Source: a virus
IMG/VR virus record: IMGVR_UViG_3300044630_006279
Location: 1-44,755 of that record
DNA: 44,755 bases
Direction: 5' to 3' (one strand)
In this document: one piece after another, positions 1 to 26,079 of the stretch
Position numbering within the stretch: position 1 is the first letter of the stretch
Layout of the letters: each line of letters starts with the position of its first letter
Notes under the pieces: generated by a model
The model's input: only the letters and a program-made list of their open reading frames with translations
What the model was told of the DNA's origin: nothing
The model's database searches: none
Translations under genes and position numbers: made by a program

Positions 1-2
1 GA

Positions 3-467
3 GACCGCCATGGAGGGAACTTCTTTGTAGCGACTGACTCCAGTGGTAAGAAGCGGTTCGTCCCAATTGATCCTTCTCTTGGGTTTGATGTCAACTGGGG
101 TGGGCGGGCTCACGAAAATTATGATGGTAACGACGAAGGATTACGAGGCTTTTTAGGCAACGATGTTGGTGGTAGAAGAAACGAGATGCTTGCAACATTG
201 AGACAGCAATTCAAAGATAGGCAAATAAGTCGGCGCGAGATACTCTTAGCCGTTGAAGAGGTTCAGAAGTCCATCCGTGAGGCAGAGCGTAAAAACCCGT
301 ATATGAATGTTGTTGAAGATGTACTGAAAGCCGGTGGGGATGGAACCGCTAACCCTAGGGGTGGGGATCAGGCTCTTTTGAGGGTTGGCGTAAAACCGCA
401 AAGAAAAATGAAATATATAACAGATGTTGACCCCGGCAGACTTGCTGATTTGATTATAGGATCATAG
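3..467 (+). CDS. C-terminal part of a kinase-like modular phage protein (truncated by window edge)
   Basis: The frame is open from base 3, so this is the 3' end of a longer gene and not a gene starting at the ATG at 186. The first codons read D-R-H-G-G-N (3-20), the catalytic-loop pattern D-x4-N of atypical kinases (HipA / PI3-4-kinase-like). A second acidic residue follows in P-I-D (Asp at 69-71), in the place of the metal-binding Asp. The 953-aa protein downstream has the same pair (D-R-H-A-G-N and P-I-D), so the two are probably paralogues. The rest is a charged helical tail ending in GRLADLIIGS. Kinase fold is inferred from motifs only; activity and substrate are unknown. Confidence 0.7.
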   Translation, partial: DRHGGNFFVATDSSGKKRFVPIDPSLGFDVNWGGRAHENYDGNDEGLRGFLGNDVGGRRNEMLATLRQQFKDRQISRREILLAVEEVQKSIREAERKNPYMNVVEDVLKAGGDGTANPRGGDQALLRVGVKPQRKMKYITDVDPGRLADLIIGS

Positions 468-472
468 GAACC

Positions 473-769
473 ATGAGAGCAGCGATCATCACCTCCAAAG
501 ACCCACTAGTTCAGGTGGATCCACTCGTCATAGTTGAGGACGATAAAGGGATTATTAAGTATTACTCAAAGGATAAAGATTCCGACAAAAAGGATAATGA
601 ACACTTTTTGGCGGTCAAGAAAGGCTCGTCGGATAAGGCTGACCTTGAGAGTATGTTGCATGGGTACTCATACCGTCATGCAGAAATACTTGAGTACAAG
701 GGTTCAAATAAGGATAAAATTAATAATTTCCTAGTTGCCTTGGGTCACAAAAAATTAGATAACAAATAA
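473..769 (+). CDS. Small hypothetical protein paired with the upstream modular protein
   Basis: 98 aa, starting 5 bases after the upstream stop, with a weak AGGAA just before the ATG. It is rich in Lys and Asp, with a short beta-like N-terminus and a charged middle (K-D-K-D-S-D-K-K). No family recognised. Its position directly behind a very large modular protein recurs at 3764-4084 and 7054-7287, although the three small proteins do not look alike in sequence. A cognate partner, chaperone or immunity-like role is inference from position only. Confidence 0.6.
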   Translation: MRAAIITSKDPLVQVDPLVIVEDDKGIIKYYSKDKDSDKKDNEHFLAVKKGSSDKADLESMLHGYSYRHAEILEYKGSNKDKINNFLVALGHKKLDNK

Positions 770-807
770 TATATTGACATCAACCTAAAATTAATATCAC
801 CCACTTA

Positions 808-888
808 GTGATACCATTTTACGGTAGCGATAATGCAACCTCAAGATTTGCATGGCTTGCTGAATATCTTCACGAATGTGGAAAGTAA
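808..888 (+). CDS. Possible 26-aa microprotein or gene remnant
   Basis: A GTG-initiated frame reading VIPFYGSDNATSRFAWLAEY then LHECGK and TAA, ending 3 bases before the ATG of the 953-aa gene. The composition looks like real protein rather than intergenic noise. The frame stays open upstream to 778 but has no ATG and no clear Shine-Dalgarno. It may be the tail of a degraded gene, or a short cistron coupled to the next start. Low certainty. Confidence 0.25.
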   Translation: MIPFYGSDNATSRFAWLAEYLHECGK

Positions 889-891
889 ACA

Positions 892-3753
892 ATGAACCTA
901 GTTTTCATTATCAAAAATCGCGACAACACACCATTTATGGTCGTCTCAACGACCCCTGAAGGATCCACCTTCAAGCCAATGACCGAAGCCGCTAAAGAAG
1001 TTGCCAAATTTCTCCGTCAAGAATATGGCAAAACACCTATAACAAAACCTGAACTAGTTCAAACAATGGACTCATCAAAAATTATTGAAGGTCCAAGCCC
1101 ATCAGGATCAGCGATAGAGAAAAAGGTTGCAAACCTTGCATTCCTTAAACAGGAAATTGTAGAAACCAAAAACCTTCCTGTTCTGTCAATATCTGAGGTT
1201 TTACTTTCTGAGTTTTCAAACGAAGAATTCCGAAATGTTCTGAGTTTTAAGGCTTCATCATTTATCTCTGATCAAACCCAATCATCTTTCAACTTTGAAA
1301 TCAAAGGTGTGCGAGCAATTTGGGATCCGAGTCTTTCTATTCCCGGCACTAACCGTCGTGGTGGTTTCCGATGCCCTGTAGGGACACGATATGGCGGACA
1401 GATCACCGATCGCTTTGGTCGTTCGTGTGGTTGGGGCGTAGCACGCCGTATCGCCAACCAAATCGCTGACATTGGTGAACGCTTAGAACAACGAGATGAC
1501 GACAAACGAAAGCGTCGCCTTGACCGTCGTAACGCACGAATGATGAGACGGCTTGGTGGGGTTCCCGAGACTGGTCGCGTTGAAGGTGGTTTAAGAGGAA
1601 TTGCTGATCGTCTTGAAGGTGGTGACAAACCGAAACCACGAAGGGCTCGTGGTGGAGGTAGAGAATTCGCTGCCGAAGTTTGGAATGCAAGCAATGTTGG
1701 CAGAGTTGTGAACGCTGTTAGAGGTGAAAGACAGCAAGGTAATGAACAGGCAGAAGTGGATGCACCGTCTGCTCGCCGACCACAAAACAGGAGACGCGAT
1801 GTTATTCCAGAAACAGCGCCAACACCTGCGCCAAAACCTCGTCCTACACGCCGACCTGCACCAGCAGGACAACGACGACCACAGCCACGCCCACGCGTTG
1901 CACCACAACCAGCCAATGTTGATGTACTGACAGCACGCGAAGCATCAGACGCAGGAGCATCAGAAGATTTCAGCCCATATGTATTAAGAAAATACAACGA
2001 ATACGCTAAGCGTGTTCGTGAAATCCGTGCAGGTGGTGGAAATGCTGGAATGTTGACACGCCGCGAATGGTATGCAATCAACAAACCTAATCTTCGTGAC
2101 GCTTGGAAAGATGCTCACGGTCGTAGCGCACCACAAGATTTTGAACCACCGACACCGCAGGCTCGTCGTCCAAGGAATAACCGTGGTCGTCGCAAGAAGG
2201 CAACGACAGCAGGCGCCGCCCGTAGCGCAACTCGGAAACCCGCACCTGATGATGTACCTGAACCAGCACCAGTAAAACCTGTGCGCCCTGCGGCAAGGAA
2301 TCCTCGTCTTGAACCAACACAAGATTTTGACCACACTGGTGTTGCTTATAGCCGATTTGAAGATGCCAAAGAAAAGGCTAACCGCCTCGCAAGACTTGAG
2401 AACCGTCAATTCCATGTTGTTGCATATACGCAAAATGGAAAATCCTCTGGTCGTGATGCGTATTATGTATTAGACGATGATCAGATGATGGCAGTTAGAG
2501 GAAACCAACAACTCCAAGACCGTAGAATGGTCAGAGAAGAATTTGGTGTTCCTGCTGGAGGATTGACCGCTCTTCGCAACAGGATAAATGCACAATTAAA
2601 CGCCCCTACCCCACCATCACAGGGGGATGGTTCGCCAACACCACCAGAACCTCCAACACCACCAACTCCCCCAAGAGCGCCGAGAGTAAGAAACGCACCA
2701 AAAAATAATGTTGTTTCACTTGACGAAGAAGCCGCGAAGAGAGTCAATGACCGAAACGTTGCAGGGATAAAGAAAAGCAAAGCGTCACGGTTCAATAAAA
2801 ACCATGGTCACGTTGAAATAGATGGAATACTTGTCCCCAAGGCAGTGAAAAAGGGCAACGCAAACATTTCAACACAAGCAAAAGCAAATCAGTTTGTGAA
2901 AAATGGCGGAGATCTTGATGATGTCCCAGATGCTTTCCTGAAAGATGCGATTCTTGCCAATGGAAACTATCCGAACGAGCCTGCTGGTCAGATCTCAAAA
3001 CGATTTAAGTTGTTGGCTGATCCGGGTAACGGAATCAACAACAGGGCGTCACGAAGCAAAAAGAACAAAACATATGTAGTGGAAGATGCTGTTTCTGGTA
3101 AAAAATATATCCTAAAGAGCCCGTCTTTTGTTGAAAATGAATTTATTGGTGAACAATACGCAGCGGTGCTTGGTCAAGCATTTGGCAGACCGATGTCTAG
3201 AGTGAGAATTGCTGGAGACATGGTTAGTATTCGTGGTCACCGAAATATAACTAGGAATGCGGCAATTCTTGTAGAGCATTATGGTGATGTAGTTGACGGT
3301 GACATAAAGGCTGGACGGAATCGTCCAAATCAGATAGATCCAGTAGCGCAAGGAATGGTGCGAGTTTTGGATCGCGTTATGGGCAATCCCGATAGGCATG
3401 CAGGCAACTACCTCTGGGTTGGAAATGAGCAAATCCCAATTGACCATGGCATCTACAACAACGGCGTAGGAAAAATCAGAGAACTATCCAAGGCGGATGC
3501 AAAAAGAATGCTCGCAGTTGATCAGTTCAACCGACAGGATGCACCAGCACTAGCGCAAATACAAGACTCAATTTCAAAACTCACAGTACAGCAAATTGAT
3601 CTGATTGTTGAAAACATGAAAGAGGCTTGGGGTTCATTGGATGCCGCTACGCCAGCAGATAAAATCAAGATAGATGCCTCAATTCAAGCAATACGAGTCA
3701 ATCTCAAAAATCTGAAAGAGGCTGCGGACGAGATTCGTCTTGCAAGACCATAG
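892..3753 (+). CDS. Large modular phage protein with shared Cys module and C-terminal kinase-like domain (953 aa)
   Basis: Domain order as read: a unique N-terminus (about 1-125); a conserved module (about 130-250) with W-D-P-S at 144-147 and a Cys pair C161-x17-C179; a long Arg/Pro/Ala-rich, probably disordered linker with a small folded-looking insert (about 480-555) and a Pro-Thr hinge near 573-600; and a C-terminal region (about 640-953). That region has atypical-kinase landmarks: K742 in Y-I-L-K, Glu residues 748-754, the catalytic loop D834-R-H-A-G-N839, and D851 in I-P-I-D. The 990-aa neighbour shares the module at about 90% protein identity by eye, while many third codon positions differ. 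Location before the capsid gene suggests a virion or assembly protein. Phosphorylation targets are unknown; the C-terminus could also be a HipA-like toxin or effector. Confidence 0.75.
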   Translation: MNLVFIIKNRDNTPFMVVSTTPEGSTFKPMTEAAKEVAKFLRQEYGKTPITKPELVQTMDSSKIIEGPSPSGSAIEKKVANLAFLKQEIVETKNLPVLSISEVLLSEFSNEEFRNVLSFKASSFISDQTQSSFNFEIKGVRAIWDPSLSIPGTNRRGGFRCPVGTRYGGQITDRFGRSCGWGVARRIANQIADIGERLEQRDDDKRKRRLDRRNARMMRRLGGVPETGRVEGGLRGIADRLEGGDKPKPRRARGGGREFAAEVWNASNVGRVVNAVRGERQQGNEQAEVDAPSARRPQNRRRDVIPETAPTPAPKPRPTRRPAPAGQRRPQPRPRVAPQPANVDVLTAREASDAGASEDFSPYVLRKYNEYAKRVREIRAGGGNAGMLTRREWYAINKPNLRDAWKDAHGRSAPQDFEPPTPQARRPRNNRGRRKKATTAGAARSATRKPAPDDVPEPAPVKPVRPAARNPRLEPTQDFDHTGVAYSRFEDAKEKANRLARLENRQFHVVAYTQNGKSSGRDAYYVLDDDQMMAVRGNQQLQDRRMVREEFGVPAGGLTALRNRINAQLNAPTPPSQGDGSPTPPEPPTPPTPPRAPRVRNAPKNNVVSLDEEAAKRVNDRNVAGIKKSKASRFNKNHGHVEIDGILVPKAVKKGNANISTQAKANQFVKNGGDLDDVPDAFLKDAILANGNYPNEPAGQISKRFKLLADPGNGINNRASRSKKNKTYVVEDAVSGKKYILKSPSFVENEFIGEQYAAVLGQAFGRPMSRVRIAGDMVSIRGHRNITRNAAILVEHYGDVVDGDIKAGRNRPNQIDPVAQGMVRVLDRVMGNPDRHAGNYLWVGNEQIPIDHGIYNNGVGKIRELSKADAKRMLAVDQFNRQDAPALAQIQDSISKLTVQQIDLIVENMKEAWGSLDAATPADKIKIDASIQAIRVNLKNLKEAADEIRLARP

Positions 3754-3763
3754 GGAGAAACAA

Positions 3764-4084
3764 ATGATTGAAGATGGATATTTTGTAAGTTTCTTTTCTG
3801 ATGATGAAGCAAAGAAACAGGAACCACGCAACATCGTTGTAATCAAAAACGGAAAAGTTTCTATATATGTAAATCCAAAAGAAAATGAAAACGACAAGAA
3901 TTGGTTATCTTCTCTTAAGGAGAGATTGTCAAAAGTTGAAAATGACAAAAAGAAGTATGAATACGAAGCATTATCACTTGAGAGTTTTTGGGATTGGAAT
4001 GGCTATACGCCAAATCCTTCAGATTTCATTGAACCAAATCAGTATGACGGCAAGTACGACACCCTTATAGGAAAATGGAAATAA
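3764..4084 (+). CDS. Small acidic hypothetical protein between two modular proteins (106 aa)
   Basis: Start set at the ATG at 3764 because AGGGAG lies 6 bases upstream (3752-3757). The frame extends 8 codons further to a TTG inside the upstream gene, but without a ribosome site. The protein is rich in Lys, Asp, Glu and aromatic residues (for example F-W-D-W-N-G-Y), with a coiled-coil-like middle. It begins 10 bases after the 953-aa gene and its stop directly abuts the next ATG, so the three are almost certainly co-translated. No family recognised. The position matches that of the small proteins at 473 and 7054. Confidence 0.65.
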   Translation: MIEDGYFVSFFSDDEAKKQEPRNIVVIKNGKVSIYVNPKENENDKNWLSSLKERLSKVENDKKKYEYEALSLESFWDWNGYTPNPSDFIEPNQYDGKYDTLIGKWK

Positions 4085-7057
4085 ATGCTTCAGAACATTG
4101 TTGACTTTAAAGCAAAATCTTTCCTTAGTGAAAGAAACACGTCAACGATGGCTTACGAAGTTAAGGCTGTCCGTGCTATGTGGGATCCGAGTCTTTCCAT
4201 ACCGGGAACCAACCGTCGCGGTGGATGGCGTTGTCCAGTTGGTACTCGTTACGGTGGACAAATAACTGATCGTTTTGGTAGATCCTGTGGATGGGGTGTA
4301 GCCCGTCGGATTGCAAACCAAATATCTGACATTGGTCAACGCTTGGAAAATGTTGATGATGCTCGTAGGGGTCGTCGTATTGCTCGCCGTGAACGACGGA
4401 TACTTGCAAGACTTAATCCCAATGGTGGTGGCGCTGGTCGTCTTGAGCAAGGTTTGCGTGGCGTTGCCGAACGATTGGACGGCGGAGACGCACCTAGCCC
4501 TCGTGGTGATCGTAGGCGAACTGTTGTTGCTCGACCACCATCGGTTGATGCACCTGACACACCACGAGAATTAGCCCCTGCTCGTCCGCCTCGTAACAAT
4601 AGGAATCTCCTCGCGGCTGAACCACTAAATGTTCTGCAAGAAATGCGTGACGAATTAGAAAACGCTACTGGCGGAAGAGACAGCGACGATTACAAGCGTG
4701 TAATTGCGGAATTGAAACGACGCAATGCTGTTGCTCGTCCTGCCCGCAGACGGCGTGCAGTACAGCCAAGGGGTGAAGGTAATCTACGCGAATCAGAACA
4801 ACGACGCATGGATCGTGAAATTGAACAACCCGGTGCACCGCGTACTGGCGAAGCACCTGCTCGCCGTCGTCGCCGTGCAGTTGTTGAAGCAACAAAGAAG
4901 CCAAAAGCACCAAAACAAGAAAAAGAAAATGCTGTTGAAAAACCTATAGTTGAGCCAAAGATTGTTAAACCTCGTCGCCCTAGGAAAAACCCTGAAGGTG
5001 ACATAGGCGCGATGCTCAACGCTGAATCAGAACAGCGAAGGGTTCCAAAACCAGCACCTCGCGGAGATAGCGACAACGCGGCTCGTTCAGAGGAGATGAG
5101 GCGAAACCGTGAGGCGATGGCTCTGGCTGCCATCGCTGACGCACAAAAAAGAAAACGAGCAAGGAAGGCTGCACGAAAAGTTGACTTGAATCAAGCGTTG
5201 AACGACGACAATTTTCAAGAATATGTTGTTCGTGACGTCATTCCAAATGACCGAATAATGATTGTTAATGATCCAGCCAATTTTCCGCAAACTCCTGCCA
5301 GAAAAAGAGATAAAAGGGATGAAGCAAGCGCAAAAATTACTGCATCAAACGCAAGGTTGGAGCGTCTACAACAAGCAATTGACAGAGGCGAACTTTCAGA
5401 CAATGACTTCATTGAACGAAATGGTGAAAAAATCAATATCGCACGAGTCAAGACATACATTAAGGATTACCGCGATTCGTGGCAGGAAATTCTTGATGCC
5501 AACAAAGATGAAGTCGCCGCTCCCGTACCTGCGATTGACCCGATTGACGCACCATTCAAAACACCAAAACGAGTTAAACCAAATCCTCCAAACATTGGTG
5601 ATGAATCACCATCTGAACTTGTATTCAAACCAGCAAAAATAGACGTAGCGAACCTTTCTACGGCAAACGAAAAAATCGTAGAAGATGTATTGCTCCAAAT
5701 CAAAGACCCTAAAAATCTACAAAACTTTGGGCGGCATATTGACGAAATGATATTTAATGACAATCAGGGTCGAATGGCTGCTGAAAGAGATTTTCAAGAT
5801 TTGCTTCAATCAATAATTGAGAAATATAAAGCCAATCCTCAAATTGATTTGAAAAAAACAATTGAAGAAGCACAAGCATCCTATGTGCGAAGAATTGCTT
5901 TAAACAGACTCAAACTCAGTGAGGCTTTGAACAGGGACAAAGCCGCTGTTGATAGTGCTTGGGCTTTAATAAAGAACCCAACAGGAAATCTCAGTCCAAC
6001 GCAAATGGAAGAACTACGCGTCAGCAAGGCAAAAGATATTGCCAAAATGAAAGAAAGTATTGGACGATACGAGCAGATGCTGAAGAATTATGATCGTTTT
6101 GAACCTGAAGTTGACAAAGCAGTAAAAAGAATTCAAAGAGGATTGAATTTCAACCCTGACGCAACTGGTGTTGTGAAACCACTAGACGAAGATGTTGTGA
6201 AGAAGATCAAATCACAAATTGACGATGCCATAAAGCGTCGTAGCGGAAAACTTGCTAAGTATATGGAAAAGCGTTACGGTACTGGAAAGAAACCATTTGA
6301 GGATATGACGCCAGAAAAATGGCGCTCGCTTGACTTTGCGGGGAAAAAGAAGTATTTAGAAGAAGCGTATGGTCATTCTCGTATTGAGGGTGCAAATGGA
6401 AAACTTTACAATGCGGTAGCAACGGTGCGAATAGGGAACAACGATCAGCACAGCGTGAGTGTCGTATTCAATGAAATTGATGCAAACGGGAATATTGTTC
6501 GTGCAGCAATTGGTGATTCCGGTCGCCTCGTGAGCGTAAATAGTGGATATGTAAAACAATCAACCATGTTCGTGAGAAGCAAAATGGACAGAGGCGCTGA
6601 CATACAGACAATCTATAATCAGCATGCGTTTCTTTTCTTAAAGCAGATTGGTATCAGTAAAGCAAAAGTTGGTGCAGTTGATGACGGTCAATATGTTTGG
6701 GCGAGAGTTGGTTTTAATGGTGGCAATATACCCGAAAACAGACTAGGGGGATTCAAAAAAGCGCTATCTTTTTATGAAAACTTTGGTGCGGGTGGTTTGA
6801 TTAACTCTGAAGCGGAGTATTTTAGAATCAAATCAATGATTGCTCAAACTCGTGGCGGTAAAAAGTTTATTCACCAAGATTGGATTTTTGCTATTGATGA
6901 TCCCGCTAATGACAAAGTCCGCAGGGAGTTTGTTAAGCATTGGTTCAAGAGCAATCTTCCGTTTAGTAGTGGAACTTTCTCTTTTGCTAAAAACAAGATA
7001 GGTGGAACTGCTCCACGGAGACAAAGAGCACGAGCAATACCAAGGGGCAACGCGTGA
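4085..7057 (+). CDS. Large modular phage protein sharing the Cys module, different C-terminus (990 aa)
   Basis: The start at 4085 is supported by homology: residues 4-32 align with the 953-aa protein just before its module. The shared module spans about 28-135, with W33, C50-x17-C68 and G-L-R-G-V-A-E-R-L-D-G-G-D. An Arg/Ala/Pro-rich linker follows to about 330, then helical, Lys/Glu-rich segments (about 340-730). The final domain (about 740-985) contains Q-Y-V-W-A-R-V-G-F, with no kinase motifs. I do not recognise that domain; its beta/alpha look would fit an acetyltransferase-like or other small enzyme fold, but this is a guess. Same N-terminal module plus different C-terminal cargo is the main point of interest. 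Confidence 0.75.
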   Translation: MLQNIVDFKAKSFLSERNTSTMAYEVKAVRAMWDPSLSIPGTNRRGGWRCPVGTRYGGQITDRFGRSCGWGVARRIANQISDIGQRLENVDDARRGRRIARRERRILARLNPNGGGAGRLEQGLRGVAERLDGGDAPSPRGDRRRTVVARPPSVDAPDTPRELAPARPPRNNRNLLAAEPLNVLQEMRDELENATGGRDSDDYKRVIAELKRRNAVARPARRRRAVQPRGEGNLRESEQRRMDREIEQPGAPRTGEAPARRRRRAVVEATKKPKAPKQEKENAVEKPIVEPKIVKPRRPRKNPEGDIGAMLNAESEQRRVPKPAPRGDSDNAARSEEMRRNREAMALAAIADAQKRKRARKAARKVDLNQALNDDNFQEYVVRDVIPNDRIMIVNDPANFPQTPARKRDKRDEASAKITASNARLERLQQAIDRGELSDNDFIERNGEKINIARVKTYIKDYRDSWQEILDANKDEVAAPVPAIDPIDAPFKTPKRVKPNPPNIGDESPSELVFKPAKIDVANLSTANEKIVEDVLLQIKDPKNLQNFGRHIDEMIFNDNQGRMAAERDFQDLLQSIIEKYKANPQIDLKKTIEEAQASYVRRIALNRLKLSEALNRDKAAVDSAWALIKNPTGNLSPTQMEELRVSKAKDIAKMKESIGRYEQMLKNYDRFEPEVDKAVKRIQRGLNFNPDATGVVKPLDEDVVKKIKSQIDDAIKRRSGKLAKYMEKRYGTGKKPFEDMTPEKWRSLDFAGKKKYLEEAYGHSRIEGANGKLYNAVATVRIGNNDQHSVSVVFNEIDANGNIVRAAIGDSGRLVSVNSGYVKQSTMFVRSKMDRGADIQTIYNQHAFLFLKQIGISKAKVGAVDDGQYVWARVGFNGGNIPENRLGGFKKALSFYENFGAGGLINSEAEYFRIKSMIAQTRGGKKFIHQDWIFAIDDPANDKVRREFVKHWFKSNLPFSSGTFSFAKNKIGGTAPRRQRARAIPRGNA

Positions 7058-7287
7058 AACTTTCAGAAGAACAAAAAAATTCAATAAAAGACCAATTGTT
7101 GTCAACTATCAAAAATTCGGAGACGCGTTCAAAGATTATTTCAATTGCTACTGGATACGCTGACGAAACTGGTGAAGATGGAGATCTTGAATCAATGGTA
7201 TTGTTTTTGATGGATAGCGAGAATTCTTCAAAGATTGATGAACTATTTGAACAATACGGTATGTCTATGCCTTACACGGCGGAATAA
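7054..7287 (+). CDS. Small acidic hypothetical protein (77 aa)
   Basis: GTG start overlapping the upstream TGA by 4 bases (GTGA), with AAGGGG at 7041-7046 as ribosome site. The protein is acidic and mostly helical, with a D-E-T-G-E-D-G-D run. It is the third small gene placed directly after a large modular gene. No family recognised; the coupling implies matched amounts with the 990-aa protein. Confidence 0.65.
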   Translation: MKLSEEQKNSIKDQLLSTIKNSETRSKIISIATGYADETGEDGDLESMVLFLMDSENSSKIDELFEQYGMSMPYTAE

Positions 7288-7294
7288 TAAATAA

Positions 7295-8434
7295 ATGACC
7301 GATCCTAAAACAACGCGAGATCAGGCTCTTCGTGTTGCACGCATGCTTGGATGCCAAGGCGTATACGAAGACGGCAAAGGTTGGATGCCTTGCGCCTCGC
7401 GTGAAGAATATGAAGCCATCAAAAAAGGCAAAGACGAATACTTGAAAGTTCGTGCTTCTAAGAAGAAGAAGCCGTTGCCGAAAATGGTTCAACGGACAAA
7501 GCGTTTAGAAACAAAGTCTGATGCATATTACGAGAATCGTGCTGATGCTGTCGCTATTTCTAAGGCTCGTGGTTGTGGTGGTGTGCGAACCATCCTTCTT
7601 GCAGGGAAAAAGTATTATGCGGTTTGTAACCACAAGGCACCTAAACGGGGTTGGGAGAACCTTGATGAGAAACCTATTTCCGGTATCGCAACCTTGCCGG
7701 GTGGCGGACTTGTAACAGGCTCGTTTTCTGGTAAGTCTTTAGAAGAAAAGGGTTTCGTTAACTTTGTTAGCCGTTCAACAGACCCTGATACGTTCAGCGA
7801 TCCTGATTCTGCTCGTATCCGTTCAAGGAATCTTGGCTGTATCGGTATTCGCCGTTATACGGCACGGGATGGGAAACTTGTTTGGCTTCCATGTTCTAAT
7901 GTGTCTGACTACAACCGCGTCACAGGTATCCGAGGGGATAACAGCCCTAGGAATAAACCTCGCCGAAAGGGGGCGGGTTTTGGTAAAAAGGATGATCAGG
8001 GTTCAATGGCTCAGACTGGTCTGGTGTCTTTCAAGGGTGTACCGAAACCTAAAAAGAAACCACCAACCGTGACAAGTGGCGATATCAATGATTTGGCTGT
8101 ACGAGTAAGAAACAACAACGCTAAAGCAAAAACAACAGCAAAAACCAACCTTCGTGACCTCAAAATAGTTTTCATGCGAGGCTTGGAAGATGGTTCAAAA
8201 GAGATTGCCAAGAAGCGCGTCTACAAGTTTTTGGCGTTGCTGAACTCAGACAAACCTGCCGATGTAAAATACTTTGATGACAACGACCTACTCCCGTTGG
8301 ATCACCCATGGAGAAACCGCAAAACAAGCAAAAAGTGGGCTGGATTCCAAGAAGGCGAATACGGCGTCAAATATTCCAAAGGCTGTTGCCCACGAGTAGT
8401 GAAACGACACTACTCAAATTCCCTAACTTTTTAG
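7295..8434 (+). CDS. Cys-repeat phage protein with three GC...C modules (379 aa)
   Basis: Three copies of a roughly 30-residue motif: A-x-x-x-x-x-G-C-x-G-V/I, a short variable stretch, then an aromatic residue and x-C. The Cys pairs are C20/C33, C94/C111 and C182/C200. The first reads M-L-G-C-Q-G-V ... W-M-P-C, and the third N-L-G-C-I-G-I ... W-L-P-C. A basic linker (about 210-260) and a helical C-terminal part follow, ending with C-C-P. Such repeats suggest small metal-binding or disulfide-knotted units. The gene lies between the modular proteins and the capsid gene, so a head or scaffold-associated role is plausible. ATG at 7295 follows the previous stop by 7 bases; AATAAT precedes it rather than a strong Shine-Dalgarno. 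Confidence 0.65.
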   Translation: MTDPKTTRDQALRVARMLGCQGVYEDGKGWMPCASREEYEAIKKGKDEYLKVRASKKKKPLPKMVQRTKRLETKSDAYYENRADAVAISKARGCGGVRTILLAGKKYYAVCNHKAPKRGWENLDEKPISGIATLPGGGLVTGSFSGKSLEEKGFVNFVSRSTDPDTFSDPDSARIRSRNLGCIGIRRYTARDGKLVWLPCSNVSDYNRVTGIRGDNSPRNKPRRKGAGFGKKDDQGSMAQTGLVSFKGVPKPKKKPPTVTSGDINDLAVRVRNNNAKAKTTAKTNLRDLKIVFMRGLEDGSKEIAKKRVYKFLALLNSDKPADVKYFDDNDLLPLDHPWRNRKTSKKWAGFQEGEYGVKYSKGCCPRVVKRHYSNSLTF

Positions 8435-8466: not shown

Positions 8467-8568
8467 TCTCGTATTACAGTAATAGTAACTGGACTAGGTG
8501 CTTACCGAAGTCTGCAATAAAAACATAAGTAATCACCAACCAAATCCAATTCACTAGGAGTGAACAAC

Positions 8569-9882
8569 ATGTCATTTGACAACAGCCGTTTAACTGAACT
8601 TCAAGGTGCAATGCGCACCAAGATGGCAGAAAACAAGACCATCGCCGACAACTTCAAAATTGAAGACGGCACCGTAGTAGTATCCGCAGAACAAAAGACC
8701 GCGTTTGATAAGAACATGGCAGACATCCGCGAAATCAAGAGCCTAGTTGAGGGTCTTGAGGCAATGCGCGATGCTGACCAATGGGCTTCACAACCACAGG
8801 ACTCAGTAGCACAGGCTTCGGCTTTCGCTTCGCAGGAAATGCAACAAGTAGTACAGTCATTTGGTCGCAAGAGCATTGGTGAGGCATTCCTTGCTTCAGC
8901 AGAGTTCAAGTCCCTTTTGGCAAGTGGTTCGGCAAACATGCCAGCACCATACAAGTCAAGCAGTGAAGTTTACAGTCAGAAAGACTTGTACTCGGCACTT
9001 CCAACTGGTACCCCAGGTTCGTTTGGAACAATCCAACGCGATGCCCTTGTTGTTCCTCCAATGCGCACCAAGCGTGTTCGTGACTTGTTCCCAAGTCGCA
9101 CCACAACTGCTGCAATCATTGAATACTTCCGCATGACCGGATTCACCAACAACGCGGCACCTGTTGCTGAGCGTAATGGTTCCGCATTTGCAGCCAAGCC
9201 ACAGTCGTCTTTCACCTTCGTTGGTGAGCAGGCTCCTGTTCGCACTTTGGCTCACTGGGAAGCCGCACACCGCAATGTTCTTGCTGATGAGCCACAACTG
9301 CGCTCAATCATTGACAACGAGTTGATGTACGGTCTCCGCTTGCAGGAAGATGCACAGATCCTTAACGGTTCAGGAACGGGCGAGAACCTTACAGGTATCT
9401 TGAACACCAGTGGCATTCAGACCTACAACTGGTCGTCGGGTTTCTACTCGGCAACCGCAGGTATGACCGACACCAAGGCAGACGCACTCCGTCGTGCCGC
9501 TACCCTCTCATTCTTGGCTTACTACGAGCCATCGGGCGTTGTATTGCACCCGAACGATTGGGAAGACATTGAATTGACCAAGGACGGCAACGGCGCTTAT
9601 GTCGTAGCAGTCTCGGTTGCAATGGGTGGCGAGCAGAAGTTGTGGAGGATCCCTGTTGTGGACACTCCTGCAATGACTGAAGGCACTGCACTTATCGGAG
9701 CATTCGGTACGGGAGCACAGATTTACGACCGTGAGTCAGCAAGCATTCGCATCAGCGAACAGCATGCAGACTTCTTCGTGCGTAACGCAATTGTGATCCT
9801 TGCTGAACAGCGTTTGGCTCTTGCAGTTAAGCGCCCAGAATCCTTCGTGAAGGTTTCGTTCAACGCGGCTCCATCAGCATAA
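8569..9882 (+). CDS. Major capsid protein, HK97 fold (437 aa)
   Basis: Forms the icosahedral head shell. The N-terminal about 100 residues are a charged, helical delta/scaffold-like segment typical of HK97-type precursors. The core contains P-V-A-E and L-N-G-S-G-T-G-E-N-L-T-G-I, the diagnostic G-x-G-T-G-x-x-x-x-G-I loop of the family, and a C-terminal R-x-x-x-x-V-K-R-P-E-S-F. Length fits the family. Start chosen at ATG 8569, because AGGAG at 8556-8560 is 8 bases upstream; the in-frame GTG at 8560 overlaps that site. Codon use is richer in G/C-ending codons than in neighbours, as expected for a very highly expressed gene. It sits between its own promoter and a strong terminator, so it is likely one separate transcript. 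No maturation protease gene is visible in the window. Confidence 0.95.
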   Translation: MSFDNSRLTELQGAMRTKMAENKTIADNFKIEDGTVVVSAEQKTAFDKNMADIREIKSLVEGLEAMRDADQWASQPQDSVAQASAFASQEMQQVVQSFGRKSIGEAFLASAEFKSLLASGSANMPAPYKSSSEVYSQKDLYSALPTGTPGSFGTIQRDALVVPPMRTKRVRDLFPSRTTTAAIIEYFRMTGFTNNAAPVAERNGSAFAAKPQSSFTFVGEQAPVRTLAHWEAAHRNVLADEPQLRSIIDNELMYGLRLQEDAQILNGSGTGENLTGILNTSGIQTYNWSSGFYSATAGMTDTKADALRRAATLSFLAYYEPSGVVLHPNDWEDIELTKDGNGAYVVAVSVAMGGEQKLWRIPVVDTPAMTEGTALIGAFGTGAQIYDRESASIRISEQHADFFVRNAIVILAEQRLALAVKRPESFVKVSFNAAPSA

Positions 9883-10724: not shown

Positions 10725-11126
10725 GTGGAACGATTTTGGTATGGGGCTAAGTTATTGAAAGTTGTTGACGGTGACACTGTTGAACTTATGGTTGATCTAG
10801 GTTTCAATATCCATCACAAAATGCGTGTTCGTTTGTATGGAATAAATACACCAGAGTCTCGGACGAAGGATTTGAAGGAAAAAGAATTAGGTCTAAAAGC
10901 AAAGAAATTCACTGAAGATTGGCTGACAAGTCATGAGTGGGTTTTTGTTAATACAATCCCCGACAAGAACGACAAGTACGGTCGCATTCTTGCGCGTATC
11001 TTCAGTTCTGATCAGATCAACGATCCCAAAACCGCCTGCCTAAACATAGACATCATTCAGGCTGGTTACGCTCGTGAGTACTTTGGTGTTGGCGACAAAA
11101 CATGGGCTGAATTTAAAAACAACTAA
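10725..11126 (+). CDS. Staphylococcal-nuclease-like (thermonuclease) protein
   Basis: 133 aa, GTG start with AAGGA 6 bases upstream. SNase landmarks: V-V-D-G-D-T (D15, D17), R-V-R-L-Y-G-I-N-T-P-E (R36, E44) and K-Y-G-R-I-L-A-R (R87). The catalytic Arg and Glu are kept; the usual Asp of G-I-D-T-P-E is Asn41 here, which could alter calcium binding. The family cuts DNA or RNA. No signal peptide, so it acts in the cell or virion. It overlaps the converging 52-aa gene by 4 bases. Confidence 0.85.
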   Translation: MERFWYGAKLLKVVDGDTVELMVDLGFNIHHKMRVRLYGINTPESRTKDLKEKELGLKAKKFTEDWLTSHEWVFVNTIPDKNDKYGRILARIFSSDQINDPKTACLNIDIIQAGYAREYFGVGDKTWAEFKNN

Positions 11127-11281
11127 AGTTTTGTTGTTGCCTGAAACTCGTAATACCTCAAGTCGCTTTTAAGGTAATCAATCTGTTTCTTTAGATCCGC
11201 TACCTCTATACGTAGTTTTTCTAATTCGCTATCAACCAAATGGTTAAATCCTTGTTCCGCTAAGTGGGTTTTCTCAAGCAT
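11123..11281 (-). CDS. Small coiled-coil protein (52 aa)
   Basis: A clean ATG-to-TAG frame on the minus strand in a gap of about 170 bases that otherwise holds no gene. The protein begins M-L-E-K-T-H-L-A-E-Q and carries a heptad-like stretch L-E-K-L-R-I-E-V-A-D-L-K-K-Q-I-D-Y-L. It is the last gene of the minus-strand operon, 17 bases after the oxygenase stop. Its tail overlaps the nuclease stop by 4 bases. A similar coiled coil lies at 12460-12690. No Shine-Dalgarno is obvious. Function unknown. Confidence 0.6.
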   Translation of the reverse strand: MLEKTHLAEQGFNHLVDSELEKLRIEVADLKKQIDYLKSDLRYYEFQATTKL

Positions 11282-11298
11282 CTCTACACATTAGTTCT

Positions 11299-11859
11299 TT
11301 ATTCAACTAGCAAAAAGTATGTTGAAGAGAACCTTCTTCCCTTGGTTACTGGTCTCACCCAATGCCACAAGTTTGCATCAAAGAACACACACGAATTTGG
11401 TTGAGGTTTTAGCGTAAATAGATTTTTTAATCCTTTGGTGTCAACTGTTGCTTGCTGAATCGGTGGTCTTTCAGTAGTGAAACACACTTCACCGCCCTCG
11501 TAATCATCGTTCAAGTAGTAGACAGCAGAAGCGTTTGGCGTAAAACCGATCTCTGGATCATCGGGGTAGTCTTTATTGGGGACAGAATCCTGATGATAGT
11601 CCATCCCTCTGTTATCAGAAAAATCAAGGATATTCCCACCTTTTATCTTGAGCAGTTTTCTTTGACAGTGAAGTGGGTAGAGGCTCTCAATATTTTTGCC
11701 TATAGACCAAGTTTCAATGTTTTGAAGATTAACCAAATGAGGTGTTTGCTCGCTCGTTGCACCATGCGAACTGAGAGCCTGACCAAGAACGGCATGAAAA
11801 TTTGACTCTGAAAGAAAGTTTGTTAAATAAACAAAAGGGAGAGATGCCCCATCTGCCAT
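11299..11859 (-). CDS. 2-oxoglutarate/Fe(II)-dependent oxygenase (prolyl-4-hydroxylase-like)
   Basis: 186 aa. Iron ligands H89-x-D91 in Y-H-Q-D and a distal H166 in L-W-H-W, with Arg175/176 placed to bind 2-oxoglutarate. D-D-Y-E-G-G-E is the hallmark turn of the prolyl-hydroxylase-type family. Start chosen at the ATG at 11859, where TAATG overlaps the upstream stop and GGGAAA sits about 8 bases before; the frame opens 5 codons earlier without a ribosome site. It hydroxylates an unknown substrate. The upstream FkbM-like gene makes a sugar, peptide or small-molecule target plausible. Two further oxygenases are at 20813 and 28536. Confidence 0.85.
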   Translation of the reverse strand: MADGASLPFVYLTNFLSESNFHAVLGQALSSHGATSEQTPHLVNLQNIETWSIGKNIESLYPLHCQRKLLKIKGGNILDFSDNRGMDYHQDSVPNKDYPDDPEIGFTPNASAVYYLNDDYEGGEVCFTTERPPIQQATVDTKGLKNLFTLKPQPNSCVFFDANLWHWVRPVTKGRRFSSTYFLLVE

Positions 11860-12443
11860 TACAGCGTTTCCCATCGCATCTGTTTCTTGTATACATCAGG
11901 GCTTATAACCGAAGAATCCACCCACCAATCTTCATGTATTGTTCTGGCAACAAGTGTGTAATCAAGACAATCAAGTATTTCGCGCTGTGCGTCTCTCTGT
12001 CCAGTATTTCTGAAATACATATTCGCATCATGCTCAAAGGTGATAACCGAGAATCTGTATTGAGTCAACGGTATGGTAATCAAACCAAGAAGGGTTGTGT
12101 AATGGTTCCCGTTTGGGCGTGTAGCCCTGTCGTAGCCTGTATCAATATCAACCTGTAGATAGTCAATTTGTTTTGGAAAATGATTGTTTTCAAAATACGC
12201 AATGTAGTCAAAGTTGAGAGCGTCCCCCATGCAAGGGTTAGTTCTGTTGGCAATAAATTCGTTCCTTCGTTGCTCTAGCAACTCAAACGAGACACCCTGC
12301 CAGTCATATGTTTTCTCAAGTTCATATGTGTTGCTCCCCTCTGAAGAATGGAACGCTCCAAGTTCAACATAAAAACCATTCTTTTTGTGACCGAGCATTT
12401 CAAGGACAAAAGCCTCTTGCGAACTATTCCCGCTGTATTCCAT
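11859..12443 (-). CDS. FkbM-like SAM-dependent methyltransferase
   Basis: 194 aa. The N-terminal S-Q-E-A-F-V-L-E-M-L then G-F-Y-V-E-L-G-A-F is the FkbM entry and SAM-binding loop. Y-L-Q-V-D-I-D follows mid-protein, and F-E-H-D-A-N in the second half is also typical. Family members O-methylate sugars or other hydroxyls. The gene ends in a TAATG overlap with the oxygenase, so the two products are probably made together. The substrate is unknown. Confidence 0.8.
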   Translation of the reverse strand: MEYSGNSSQEAFVLEMLGHKKNGFYVELGAFHSSEGSNTYELEKTYDWQGVSFELLEQRRNEFIANRTNPCMGDALNFDYIAYFENNHFPKQIDYLQVDIDTGYDRATRPNGNHYTTLLGLITIPLTQYRFSVITFEHDANMYFRNTGQRDAQREILDCLDYTLVARTIHEDWWVDSSVISPDVYKKQMRWETL

Positions 12444-12459
12444 GAACGAATACTAGCAT

Positions 12460-12690
12460 TTACCCCAACTTGCCAAACCTCTGAGAATGATCCCCAACGG
12501 TCTTCAGCGTAGAGCCCAAAGTTCCCTTTATCTGATCATTTGAAATCTGATTCTGTTTAACTCCGTGATCAAGACCTTGAACCTCAAGTTTCAGAGATTG
12601 TATTTCAGAGACAAGTTGTTTAATCCTTTTTTCGGTTTGCTCAATGAAACCTTCCAACTTCTCTAATATTTCATCATATTGTGAGTCCAT
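12460..12690 (-). CDS. Coiled-coil small protein (76 aa)
   Basis: Start set at ATG 12690, one base after the upstream stop and with GGAG 9 bases before it; the frame continues upstream into the neighbouring gene without a ribosome site. Residues about 5-55 form heptads (I-L-E-K-L-E-G-F-I, I-K-Q-L-V-S-E-I). No enzyme motif. Likely oligomeric; function unknown. Confidence 0.6.
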   Translation of the reverse strand: MDSQYDEILEKLEGFIEQTEKRIKQLVSEIQSLKLEVQGLDHGVKQNQISNDQIKGTLGSTLKTVGDHSQRFGKLG

Positions 12691-12691
12691 A

Positions 12692-12967
12692 TTATTTGTC
12701 TCCGTTCTTTCTTTTATCCAAGCCGTGTAATGCTTGCTCACATATTTTAGCCCACTCTTGCGGATGGTTATTTTTCACCCATTGAATGGCTATCTGTGAT
12801 CGCTTATTAGCGACAACTTGATGAAACCTAGCCTGAGATTTACCAGCACTAGTTTTCCTGTAGGCACGCATATATTCAGCGGCTGCTTGCTTGCACTCCG
12901 TGCACCTGCATTTAATGTTTGTGTAGGTTGCGTACAACCCGTGAACTATTTCTGGCTCCATGCCCAT
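12692..12967 (-). CDS. Small Cys-motif phage protein (91 aa)
   Basis: Carries H-G-L-Y-A-T-Y-T-N-I-K-C-R-C-T-E-C-K followed by a basic helix A-E-Y-M-R-A-Y-R-K. This resembles short actinophage proteins of the type H-G-x-x-x-x-Y-x-x-x-x-C-R-C-x-x-C, probably a small zinc-bound DNA- or RNA-binding fold. It overlaps the end of the deacetylase gene by 22 bases; the second ATG at 12961 is an equal alternative start. No known function. Confidence 0.55.
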   Translation of the reverse strand: MGMEPEIVHGLYATYTNIKCRCTECKQAAAEYMRAYRKTSAGKSQARFHQVVANKRSQIAIQWVKNNHPQEWAKICEQALHGLDKRKNGDK

Positions 12968-13887
12968 CCGTAAATATTGTAAAGATGTGTTTTTGCCACA
13001 TCGTCTCGTGTTGTATTTTGACCAGAGTACCCACCAGCGAGGGCAAAGATCGCCTTGCTTTCACCAATGAAATTGGATACCAACTTCTCTCTTTGTTTGA
13101 TCACTTCTTGATCAATTTCGTATGCATCCATTGGGTCAATCCCCGCATTGTATATGAACACGGTTTTGTCGGTCACTAATGGACGAGCGATTTCAAGCGC
13201 TTCTTTAATACAGTCAAGATAATCATCGTTGATACCACGAACATTGAGATAAGACCACTTTGCGTCACTTTCATAGGAATCAAAATGATTTGTGGACATA
13301 TCAATATGCTGAATAGGTGTTTGTTCGTCATTCAATGAATTGTTGAACTTGTTTAGAAAGTTCATTGTCCCACCGCCACAGTGGGCGTCAAAGTCAAGAA
13401 TGATTGGCTCAAAACCTTGCTCATGGGCGTAGATCGCCGACAAAGCAATCCCGTTGATAGTGCAGAACCCTGCACCCGAACCCATAGAAGCATGGTGGAG
13501 ACCTGACGACAAACTTCCACACCTGCCGCCACCCGATTTAACCTCATCAACCGAAGCGATCAACCCGTGCGCATGGGCACGAGCGAAAGCGTAAGTGTTG
13601 GGGCACCATCTGAAACCTTGACTTTCAGATAGAAGCCTATTGTTGTTCGTCCTAAGTGCTTCAGCGTAATTTTTAGTTAGCCAAGAATTGATTAAACCTT
13701 CGGTGACGTCCACATCGGTCTTTGCGTAAGGATCGCAGATTTCCACATTTGGGATATCTTTATGCAGTCTTAACTGTGATGGCATTTCTTGGTTTTCTTT
13801 GATCAACGCGACAATATTGTCGGATTTGCGCGATGTGTCAAAGTCGTGGGAAATGTTTGTGTAGTCGCTGTTCCAAAATACTTTCAT
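12946..13887 (-). CDS. Histone deacetylase-superfamily (arginase-fold) amidohydrolase
   Basis: 313 aa when started at ATG 13887, which follows the previous stop by 4 bases. The frame extends 14 codons into the upstream gene, but homologues begin like M-K-V-F-W here. Active-site residues are all present: the H131-H132 pair in G-L-H-H-A, zinc ligands D167 and H169 in D-F-D-A-H, D251 in N-A-G-I-D, and Y287 in A-G-G-Y. The family removes acetyl groups from lysine, acetylpolyamines or acetoin-type compounds. Presence in a phage is unusual. It lies in an operon with a protein phosphatase, so reversal of host modifications is one idea. A phage-coded Lys-rich H1-like protein (19790) is a possible substrate; that link is inference. 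Confidence 0.85.
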   Translation of the reverse strand: MKVFWNSDYTNISHDFDTSRKSDNIVALIKENQEMPSQLRLHKDIPNVEICDPYAKTDVDVTEGLINSWLTKNYAEALRTNNNRLLSESQGFRWCPNTYAFARAHAHGLIASVDEVKSGGGRCGSLSSGLHHASMGSGAGFCTINGIALSAIYAHEQGFEPIILDFDAHCGGGTMNFLNKFNNSLNDEQTPIQHIDMSTNHFDSYESDAKWSYLNVRGINDDYLDCIKEALEIARPLVTDKTVFIYNAGIDPMDAYEIDQEVIKQREKLVSNFIGESKAIFALAGGYSGQNTTRDDVAKTHLYNIYGWAWSQK

Positions 13888-13891
13888 ATTC

Positions 13892-14431
13892 TTACCAGCC
13901 ACCCTCTGTGTGCTTCTGTCGGATTTCAAGAAGGGTTGTCCCTAGATTGAAATACTTGTCAAGGTGTTTTACGATAAGGATGTTGGGTGCGAATGTTCGC
14001 TTAAATCCATGACCAAAGACACTGCTTTCGTTTGGGTGATTTTGTTGTAGTTGCAGGAATGCTTCCAAAGGTTCTTCACCGTTTGCGATTGCCACCCCCC
14101 ATGCTGTTGCCGTAGAGCGGGAAATACCTGCATGGCAGTGAACCAAGAGTTTTGGAACCCCTGCACCAAACTCAATGAGTTCTGCAACATTTTCATATGA
14201 TGGTCCACCGTTGTTTTCAAACATGGTGTCGTGGAATTCAACGACTTTATGTATTGGGTGTCTGAATTCGCTGACTTCCCGTTTAGATGGTCCTGCTGTA
14301 ATTACTGCGTCAAAGTCACGGCAGTTCAACTGTGCTTCCTTGAGGTTCATTACGGTAGGTAATTCGGTGATTAGTGATGTTTTAGGTATGTTTATATTAT
14401 CCATACCGTAAGTGTAGTGCGCCTCATTCAT
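13892..14431 (-). CDS. Protein tyrosine / dual-specificity phosphatase-like
   Basis: 179 aa from ATG 14431. The P-loop signature is H-C-H-A-G-I-S-R (C99 nucleophile, R105), with S-R-S-T after it. A candidate general acid D68 sits in E-F-H-D. These match small dual-specificity phosphatases of the HCx5R class. First gene of the minus-strand operon; a TATAAA box near 14459-14464 (minus) and GGGTGGG 8 bases before the ATG support this start. In-frame alternatives are GTG 14473 and ATG 14404. The target may be a phosphoprotein, RNA 5' end or phospho-sugar. Confidence 0.8.
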   Translation of the reverse strand: MNEAHYTYGMDNINIPKTSLITELPTVMNLKEAQLNCRDFDAVITAGPSKREVSEFRHPIHKVVEFHDTMFENNGGPSYENVAELIEFGAGVPKLLVHCHAGISRSTATAWGVAIANGEEPLEAFLQLQQNHPNESSVFGHGFKRTFAPNILIVKHLDKYFNLGTTLLEIRQKHTEGGW

Positions 14432-18379: not shown

Positions 18380-19756
18380 TTACCCCTCAGAAGTAACCTC
18401 AAAAAGTGAAGGCTGGCTTGCATTAATCTCCTCAGCGACCCTCAATTTTTCCTTTTCATCCGAAAGACGCAATGTCGCTATTTGTGCATACTCAGGGTTC
18501 AATTCACACCCCAAATATGATCTACCCAACTTCTGTGCGACCACACCTGTAGTACCAGCACCAAAGAACACATCCAGCACCGTACACGGAACCGTCTCAA
18601 CAGTTTCACACTTACAGCCCTTTTCCCACCCGATCGTGTCGGTTTGAGAATAACCTGCGTCGCCCTTGCCGTTTATTTCCCCATATGCGCCTTCGTAGGT
18701 GTTTGGTCGGTAACGAGGATCGTCCACTGACAACTCGTTCCGAGCAATCCTCTTGCGGTTCACTTGACGCACTAGAGGTGACCCACATTGAGCACAACAT
18801 CCCATTTCGCTCGTACCAGCGGAGATACAAGGCTCTATCAGATCCTGTGGAAAGGTCGCGAAGTGCGCCCCCTTGAATGGTTTCGTTGTTACCGTCCATA
18901 CCGACCTCTTGTTTCTAAAGGCTCCTGTTGAACCGTGCATAGCGTTAGAAATACCTGCGTCTTTACGGCTGTCTGCACGAGATCCCCTATCGTCGTAAGC
19001 ATATTTTGCTGGTTCTTTTATCGCTTCGCTATCAAAAAAATAATGTGACTTTTTGGTTAGCAAAAACATGTATTCGTGTGCTTTGGTGCACCTGTCACGA
19101 ACAGATTCAGGCATCGGGTTAGGTTTAGCCCAAATGATGTCTTGACGCAAATACCAACCATCTGCCTGCAAGGCAAAAGCAACGCGCCACGGAATACCTA
19201 CCAAATCTTTTGGTTTCAGATCGCCGTCATCGCGACCGATCTTTGCCCTGAAATCTTCATTCTCCCCGCCAGCGTTGGATGCATTGGTGGACGCAATTGA
19301 CTGCTTCCATCCGTTGCCGTTACTACCCGCATAAGAGTCACCAAGGTTCAACCATAGAGTTCCGTCTTCTCGCAAAACTCTGCGAACTTCACGAAAAACC
19401 TCAACCATATGTTCAACATATTCATCAACGGTTGGCTCTAAACCAAGTTGACTATCTTTACGCATCGCGCCACAACGAGGGCATTGGACTTTATAGATGC
19501 CGTCACCTATTGCACCTTCAAGAAGTTTCTGTCCAGTTGTGCAACTTTCACTGAACTTACTATCTCTTTTGTGCGAGCACTCAGGGTCGCCACCAATCCA
19601 GGTTGCGGTTCCGTAATCCCTTAGCCCCCAATACGGAGGTGATGTAACAACACAATGAATGCTGTTATCTGACAACGAAGCAAGCGTCTCACGGACATCA
19701 CCTAAGAGAATGTTTGAATCAATAACAAACGGCAGCACTGTTTCTTCGGTTGTCAT
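18380..19756 (-). CDS. DNA methyltransferase (N4-cytosine / N6-adenine, beta-class)
   Basis: 458 aa. Motif IV T-S-P-P-Y-W near residue 38 comes before motif I-type D-V-F-F-G-A-G-T-T-G-V-V-A near the C-terminus, the beta-class order. G-R-S-Y-L-G-C-E-L-N-P-E-Y follows. Two Cys clusters, C-P-R-C-G and C-C-A-Q-C-G, suggest zinc-binding inserts in the middle and after the central helices. Such enzymes protect phage DNA from host restriction or alter transcription. GAGGGG before ATG 19756 is a good ribosome site. No partner nuclease lies beside it; a second methyltransferase is at 32865. Confidence 0.9.
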   Translation of the reverse strand: MTTEETVLPFVIDSNILLGDVRETLASLSDNSIHCVVTSPPYWGLRDYGTATWIGGDPECSHKRDSKFSESCTTGQKLLEGAIGDGIYKVQCPRCGAMRKDSQLGLEPTVDEYVEHMVEVFREVRRVLREDGTLWLNLGDSYAGSNGNGWKQSIASTNASNAGGENEDFRAKIGRDDGDLKPKDLVGIPWRVAFALQADGWYLRQDIIWAKPNPMPESVRDRCTKAHEYMFLLTKKSHYFFDSEAIKEPAKYAYDDRGSRADSRKDAGISNAMHGSTGAFRNKRSVWTVTTKPFKGAHFATFPQDLIEPCISAGTSEMGCCAQCGSPLVRQVNRKRIARNELSVDDPRYRPNTYEGAYGEINGKGDAGYSQTDTIGWEKGCKCETVETVPCTVLDVFFGAGTTGVVAQKLGRSYLGCELNPEYAQIATLRLSDEKEKLRVAEEINASQPSLFEVTSEG

Positions 19757-26056: not shown

Positions 26057-26059
26057 TGG

Positions 26060-26067: not shown

Positions 26068-26079
26068 AATCTAAAAAAT

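Follow-up and report, generated by a model that had tools for sequence, protein, structure and literature searches.

Several systems are known in which a constant carrier is combined with variable enzymatic cargo. In the MuF polymorphic toxins, which were reported from temperate phages only, a head-region protein with a constant N-terminus carries a variable C-terminal enzyme, is followed directly downstream by a small open reading frame (ORF), and is proposed to be loaded into the head and injected (PMC5576092). The polyvalent proteins are giant phage proteins encoded with virion components, whose kinases, GNATs and other enzyme domains are thought to be delivered with the DNA; polymorphic-toxin-like cassettes are mentioned there near a kinase locus, and the phrase 'immunity protein' is absent from the main text (PMC5512222). 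The same source describes T4 Alt as a head-packaged enzyme that modifies host proteins upon injection (PMC5512222). Here we describe a tandem array of giant modular proteins among the head genes of IMG/VR virus record IMGVR_UViG_3300044630_006279, of which the whole stretch analysed (44,755 nucleotides, nt) is called the window. Nearly all of these proteins have a small gene behind them. The layout of a polymorphic effector system, with a constant module, swappable cargo and a small partner linked to that cargo, had been proposed from the letters of the window, and it is now strongly supported by the pairing of C-terminal and small-gene families and by their exchange as a block.

The window was extended in the 5' direction by IMG/VR contig L001 (64.8 kb), whose fetched locus has 11,641 nt in common with it, identical throughout, and which adds 8.8 kb. 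According to the window together with L001 and two related loci (L024 and L020), the gene order is portal, prohead protease, a 492-aa protein, a 109-aa protein, the array, a DUF3721 protein and capsid. The portal (Phage_portal, 1.2e-49) bears a MuF domain at its C-terminus (7.9e-8, in L024), the protease matches Peptidase_S78 (5.9e-11), and the 492-aa Cys-rich and 109-aa acidic proteins lie between protease and array. As a separate observation, in a relative a thioredoxin-like ORF (L041 225-560; WCGPC by eye) lies directly before the protease gene, near the Cys-rich proteins. The array, in the protease-to-capsid interval, consists of four units of a large and a small gene and of one large gene that stands by itself: slot 0 (617 aa, with a weak Cys motif and a kinase, and a 105-aa small gene), the unaccompanied 572-aa protein (weak Cys motif, DUF5872), slot A (890 + 98 aa), slot B (953 + 106 or 114 aa) and slot C (990 + 77 aa), the full module being present in slots A, B and C. 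The original prediction was correct in its ORFs and in three consecutive large-small units, but slot 0 and the 572-aa protein lie further upstream, in L001. Its truncated kinase-like protein does end in a kinase domain (family C0), yet it is also module-bearing, being the end of the 890-aa protein of L001. As well, the array does adjoin the capsid region, but not immediately, because the 379-aa DUF3721 protein stands between, as proteins of this type do at the same position in relatives.

The large proteins of slots B and C share a region of 142 aa (66% identical, E 3e-52), within which the module core from WDPSLS on differs at 3 of 56 residues and C-x17-C is kept. Over 86 aligned codons these two modules differ by 41 synonymous and 20 nonsynonymous codon changes, as had been noticed qualitatively before, and module copies within one phage differ by 40-44 synonymous versus 19-20 nonsynonymous changes. 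Since the codon differences are mostly silent and the core is nearly invariant, the copies have diverged over a long time under purifying selection. A module profile built from the window found 103 strong copies (>80 bits, near-identical contigs counted in) in 51 of 52 loci and the window, as well as 80 weak copies, and in nine contigs of 65-145 kb there was no module match beyond this locus. The module matched no known family in Pfam, and its best matches were E 0.03 in PHROGs (in one of 11 members) and E 0.075 among PDB sequences, while in cellular genomes, among the matches listed, one 25-residue match was found in an Elusimicrobia metagenome-assembled genome. Membership of these proteins in the MuF family was considered and rejected, as the MuF match falls on the portal and none on the module proteins; Phage_Mu_F gave no match at E<=1 with the 953- and 990-aa proteins.

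Across 52 viral loci the module is joined not to one fixed C-terminus but to several unrelated C-terminal families, which were defined by clustering the last 240 residues of 128 unique units. The differing C-termini noted in the window were borne out as a kinase-like domain (C8) in the 953-aa protein and a predicted GNAT fold (C2) in the 990-aa protein. Profile comparison joins families C0, C4, C5, C6 and C8 in one kinase superfamily (eight of ten pairs with a probability of 94.7-99.5), with weaker links between C5 and C6 (23) and between C5 and C8 (12). The catalytic-loop motif DRHxxN and the following Asp are invariant within all five kinase alignments (A2, A4, A5, A6 and A7), and GNxDRHxxN and PIDHG are invariant in the four-member C8 alignment. 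The 617-aa protein of L001 exceeds the curated cut-off of PF00454 (33.2 vs 27.1 bits, 6.7e-8), whereas five other kinase representatives fall below it (E 0.19 for the 953-aa protein of the window), and weak matches to PF20613 HipA_2 occur among the kinase-like C-termini. Moreover, phrog_3162, of unknown function, matches the 953-aa protein at residues 819-927 (8.6e-5), and therefore other phages have relatives of the C8 kinase-like domain. For the C5 kinase, the 13 loci that were found all belong to contigs of the existing set.

The model of the C2 domain is confident across the region of the GNAT fold, and acetyltransferases head the lists of both Foldseek (best E 0.024, probability 1.00) and VIA (Z 9.7 to GCN5, with 112 residues aligned at 3.1 A). 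The acyl-CoA loop of GNAT enzymes has the motif Q/RxxGxG/A, and among C2 relatives the corresponding loop keeps this motif in L032 (QGNGLA) and comes close to it in others, with the Gly kept. A C2-like stretch, detected with the C2 profile at about 6e-11, is also found in a 919-aa protein of other phages, which is without the module. Families C7 and C14 have HExxH with an E-containing motif further downstream, presumably the pair known from gluzincins, C11 matches DUF3626 (6.2e-10), and C10 and C15 carry the motif DGHHRWAA, which may point to ParB/sulfiredoxin folds. Because of these family matches and folds, the cargo, where it can be named, is largely made up of protein-modifying enzymes. 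Two recognized effector domains occur in only four large ORFs among 58 loci (L032, L136, L138 and L139), and the large proteins of the window have one recognized enzyme domain each. The module proteins of the more distant phages L136-L139 reach 2,039-2,484 aa, and those of L138 and L139 fuse two effector domains.

As its small ORF, each large gene was given the longest ORF of 60-170 aa with a start no more than about 260 nt from the large-gene stop. Wrong picks are possible under this rule. The small ORFs were clustered separately from the C-termini. Identical proteins were collapsed, and 3'-truncated ORFs and L052-L054 were left out before counting; the effectorless families C1 and C3 were omitted from the cross-table (and C13 also from the constant-part comparison), because the ORFs behind C1 and C3 (10 of 34 units) overlap the next large gene, judging from the gaps. 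A small ORF was assigned to 83 of the 94 remaining units, and nine one-to-one pairs take in 77 of these 83 (C0-S0, 23; C2-S1, 18; C4-S2, 10; C5-S3, 8; C6-S4, 5; C7-S5, 5; C8-S6, 4; C9-S8, 2; C11-S9, 2), so that small and large proteins co-vary as had been supposed. The mutual information between C and S families is 2.86 bits, a value reached in none of 10,000 shuffles within slot type (maximum 1.39), and with C-termini more than 90% identical collapsed (72 units) it is 2.90 bits, compared with a maximum of 1.23 in 10,000 unrestricted shuffles. Where the constant part, from the N-terminus through the module, is at least 90% identical, the small genes differ in all 29 protein pairs with different C-termini, and the small family is common to 81 of 97 pairs with the same C-terminus, none being assigned in the other 16 (the pairs are not mutually independent). 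Over all identity bins, the small family was common to 0 of 359 pairs with different C-termini. In addition, C-terminal and small-protein distances are correlated beyond module distance (partial Mantel r 0.89, 0.55, 0.89 and 0.89 for C0, C2, C4 and C5). A gap of at least 150 nt follows none of 34 effectorless proteins (C1, C3, C13) versus 86 of 91 effectors, and two small ORFs stand behind the two-domain proteins of L138, L139 and L032, that of L136 running off its locus. Taken from gene families and positions, it is strongly supported that the small gene tracks the C-terminus, with few exceptions.

Profiles of the S families place 92 of 96 matches behind the expected C family and one without an upstream gene, a figure that is partly circular because these profiles were built from small genes beside C families; the separate clustering and the loci fetched later are better tests of pairing. 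In 11 loci fetched after the families had been defined (L130-L133 being one phage type), all five non-redundant small-gene matches lie behind the predicted C family, and L083 carries C2 with S1 in its first full-module slot, not in the last. No S match was obtained there for C5 of L083, C6 of L136 and of L137, the first small ORF of L139, C5 of L137, which is truncated where the locus ends, or C9 of L130, the S8 profile not being among those built; the third large ORF of L083 and the second of L136 run off the locus. One apparent exception, C7 with S11 in L022, is weakened by position and sequence, since the ORF immediately after the effector is S5-like and that of 146 aa comes second. The partners of the five kinase families show no sequence similarity among themselves (hhalign probability at most 22), and the view that the small proteins are one family was rejected on the profile comparisons of S0-S6, which likewise gave probabilities of at most 22. 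No similarity was seen between the small proteins and the N-terminal extension of slot B proteins.

Comparison of closely related phages indicates how the cargo is exchanged. In blastn comparisons, L001 and L004 share 93.6% identity as far as position 11064 of L001, which lies in the slot B linker; nothing aligns over 11064-12858, and the alignment is taken up again (81%) at the first base of slot C, window position 4085; slot B thus holds kinase C8 with S6 in L001 and kinase C5 with S3 in L004. Upstream, L004 and L013 have 73-84% identity, and in the capsid region 86%. Identity rises to 94.7% in the stretch that holds the C5-S3 cassette and the module after it, and is 92.0% for the C-terminus of slot C together with its small gene. 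The higher identity there than around marks a recent transfer of a stretch with one or two cassettes. From these alignments, the C-terminus and the small gene are seen to be exchanged as a block. L012 and L019 carry a second, S0-type small gene behind an unrelated C-terminus (C9), while a kinase ORF that lacks the module stands behind another effector in L008 and L040 and has a small ORF after it; these genes are comparable with the cassettes found displaced in polymorphic toxin loci.

The closest relatives of the capsid protein are those of Gordonia and Brevibacterium phages, and WhiB is present in 12 of 12 contigs versus one of 14 control genomes (Corynebacterium). Since all 12 contigs carry WhiB, actinobacterial hosts are indicated, and these phages probably infect Actinobacteria. 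Tyrosine integrase (PF00589) was found in 0 of 12 contigs versus 14 of 14 controls; some sequence may be missing from the contigs, and the search did not extend to serine integrases. A tblastn search of four large proteins against 50,697 phage records returned no match, so that cultured phage collections seem to miss the array proteins. Among the matches listed, judged by title and the start of the abstract, no description of such arrays was found in the open-access literature, with subscription journals and preprints mostly outside that search.

The MuF toxins resemble this locus in their head-region protein, constant N-terminus, variable C-terminal enzyme, directly downstream small ORF and proposed head loading and injection (PMC5576092). 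Unlike that system, the carrier module here is not MuF, which sits on the portal, several units stand in tandem per phage, and kinases dominate; moreover, the phages reported with MuF toxins are temperate and the toxin gene directly follows the portal, whereas here no tyrosine integrase was seen in 12 possibly fragmentary contigs and the protease, 492-aa and 109-aa genes intervene (PMC5576092). The array shares with the polyvalent proteins giant size, encoding with virion components, and kinase, GNAT and other enzyme domains, but 2-15 domains are joined there in one polypeptide, compared with mostly one recognized enzyme domain per protein and an array of proteins here, and the kinases there are without the C-terminal subdomain (PMC5512222). 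Polymorphic toxin systems also combine a constant part with different C-termini and cognate partners, cassette exchange and orphan or displaced genes; here the carrier lies in a phage head gene cluster without a secretion system, and the recognized cargo is mostly protein-modifying enzymes. T4 Alt, head-packaged and injected as is proposed for the large proteins here, is an ADP-ribosyltransferase and is not known to undergo swapping. HipA/HipT kinases have HipB/HipS partners and are alike in combining a DRHxxN-type kinase with a small partner gene; for the partner S0, the VIA comparison with HipA (2wiu_C) gave Z 2.6, tied with unrelated folds, which does not single out a HipS-like fold.

We propose, with a probability of roughly 0.6, that the array encodes enzymes which are carried in the phage head and modify the host once injected, and that every such enzyme has an inhibitor or chaperone of its own. 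What is seen at the sequence level is a module that stays constant, C-termini that are exchanged as a block with their domain-specific small genes, catalytic residues and a position in the head cluster; by analogy, this position, the giant size, the long basic linkers, the common module and the enzyme repertoire would fit packaged enzymes. The constant Cys/Arg-rich module would mark the large protein for the phage head, and the long Arg/Pro/Ala-rich linker would join it to the exchangeable C-terminal enzyme (PI3K/HipA-like kinase or GNAT, and in relatives zincin-like peptidase, DUF3626 and others), which would modify host proteins. The small-gene product would bind its own enzyme domain and keep it inactive or folded during virion production. 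With the DNA, the enzyme alone would then pass into the next cell, its partner staying behind, and modify host targets there. The C-terminus and small gene would form one exchange cassette, for whose crossovers the repeated module and linker could provide homology. Since the small gene goes with the enzyme instead of the module, a general role in packaging is improbable for its product, and keeping the enzyme off or folded in the producing cell appears its likeliest role.

Several points weigh against this proposal. Packaging, injection, the host targets, and binding and inhibition by the small proteins are steps that we infer, and the module is put forward as a head mark or loading signal from gene position and analogy; its structure prediction is without confidence (predicted local distance difference test score <50 at residues 54-74), and we claim no fold for it. 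The C2 domain gave no Foldseek match at E<=0.001, and its P-loop reads RGADIQ in the window protein, which makes the activity of the window GNAT domain uncertain. As to the small genes, 11 of 94 units outside C1 and C3 have none assigned, six of 83 fall outside the nine pairs, three of 96 S-profile matches lie behind another C family, and nine pairs of proteins share the C family but differ in small family, their constant parts being <80% identical. The small proteins of the window match no family of note in Pfam or PHROGs, and S0, with a predicted bbb-aa-b-a arrangement, has no PDB match by Foldseek at E<=0.001 and a best VIA Z of 3.0, which does not show a new fold. Finally, protection of lysogens, the usual reason for an immunity gene, is not obviously applicable, because no tyrosine integrase was seen.

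Other explanations deserve consideration. It is possible, although we hold it the less probable view of the partner genes, that each small protein serves one enzyme domain as a chaperone in folding or loading, or as an activating subunit, and has no inhibitory or immunity role: pairing with an enzyme domain fits a dedicated chaperone equally well, the 12 contigs show no tyrosine integrase, and Foldseek and VIA revealed no clear antitoxin fold for S0. However, five kinase subfamilies of one superfamily having partners without detectable similarity would be unusual for a shared folding need, and the S0-type gene behind an unrelated C-terminus (L012, L019) is as expected of orphan immunity genes. 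We regard it as rather unlikely that the large proteins are late enzymes that modify the host or the capsid in the producing cell, where the module might, for example, dock them on the prohead or portal; in this view they would not be injected, and the small genes would regulate their activity. Their genes do stand among head genes, and capsid or host proteins are conceivable substrates for kinase and GNAT folds, but the exchange of several unrelated enzymes on one carrier beside the capsid gene is what an arms race would be expected to bring about in delivered effectors, and would not be expected of a fixed assembly step.

More doubtful still is a conflict between phages, in which the small proteins of the infected cell would neutralize matching effectors injected by a superinfecting relative, driving array diversification, while a phage's own or orphan small protein would shield the resident virulent phage and the effectors would also act on the host. 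Cassette turnover between close relatives and second or orphan small genes agree with such a conflict, and the protected party would then be the infected cell and not a lysogen, because no tyrosine integrase was seen; an arms race directed at the host, however, accounts for the turnover equally well. If true, it would amount to a polymorphic toxin/immunity economy run by virulent phages, without lysogeny. All data come from metagenomic contigs, and swapping could in principle be mimicked by assembly chimeras or gene-calling artefacts, but this is very improbable, given that the same C/S combinations recur across contigs of different metagenomes, one exchange border lies exactly at a gene start, and reading frames are intact.

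Table 1. Features of the array and of its relatives (window coordinates unless a locus is named).
Feature	Position	Strand	Remarks
Slot A large protein, C-terminal end	3..467	+	ORF open at window edge; catalytic DRHGGN at edge
Slot A full protein, 890 aa	L001 6568-9237		Module, Arg/Pro linker and kinase family C0
Small partner S0, 98 aa	473..769	+	Pairs with kinase C0
Slot B large protein, 953 aa	892..3753	+	Kinase family C8 behind N-terminal extension, module and linker
Constant module of slot B (aa 114-199)	1231..1488	+	C-x17-C
Segment unaligned with L004	2291..4084	+	Equivalent to L001 11064-12858
Kinase-like C-terminal domain, family C8	2971..3750	+	
Small partner S6	3764..4084	+	Pairs with kinase C8; 106 aa from ATG, 114 aa if TTG 3740
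Slot C large protein, 990 aa	4085..7057	+	Module, linker, helical region, GNAT-fold C-terminus (C2)
Constant module of slot C (aa 3-88)	4091..4348	+	
GNAT fold, residues 742-977	6308..7015	+	Structure prediction
Small partner S1, 77 aa	7054..7287	+	Pairs with GNAT domain C2
379-aa DUF3721 protein	7295..8434	+	Between array and capsid gene; outside any unit
Major capsid protein	8560..9882	+	Phage_capsid 3.9e-47
919-aa C2-like protein	L084 5401-8157; L085 6411-9167		Weak C2 profile match

The window also possesses a gene for a histone-deacetylase-family protein (12946-13929, minus strand; PF00850, 4.1e-17), whose link to the GNAT-fold effector would be speculation. A ribonucleotide reductase (15284-17212, plus strand) matches the B12-dependent (class II) type, and three proteins are like 2-oxoglutarate/PhyH-type dioxygenases (11299-11874, minus; 20813-21577, plus; and 28536-29498, minus, at cut-off only). 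As well, DNA methyltransferases, PAPS reductase-like and ParB-like proteins are encoded at 18380-19756 (minus), 32865-33584 (plus) and 26945-28539 (plus). Two adjoining FabG-like reductases (29574-31102, plus) and a GlcNAc-type glycosyltransferase (25064-26290) are perhaps involved in sugar or lipid modification.

Phage-borne polymorphic effectors are already known, and what is new here is a non-MuF carrier, tandem arrays, kinase-dominated cargo and no tyrosine integrase seen. The array extends the polymorphic-toxin principle of a constant carrier with an exchangeable enzyme and a cognate small gene to tandem arrays among phage head genes, on a carrier module other than MuF. The five kinase subfamilies with their five sequence-unrelated partners provide enzyme-partner pairs that can be tested, and the locus may offer a candidate head-loading tag together with a natural library of protein-modifying effectors.

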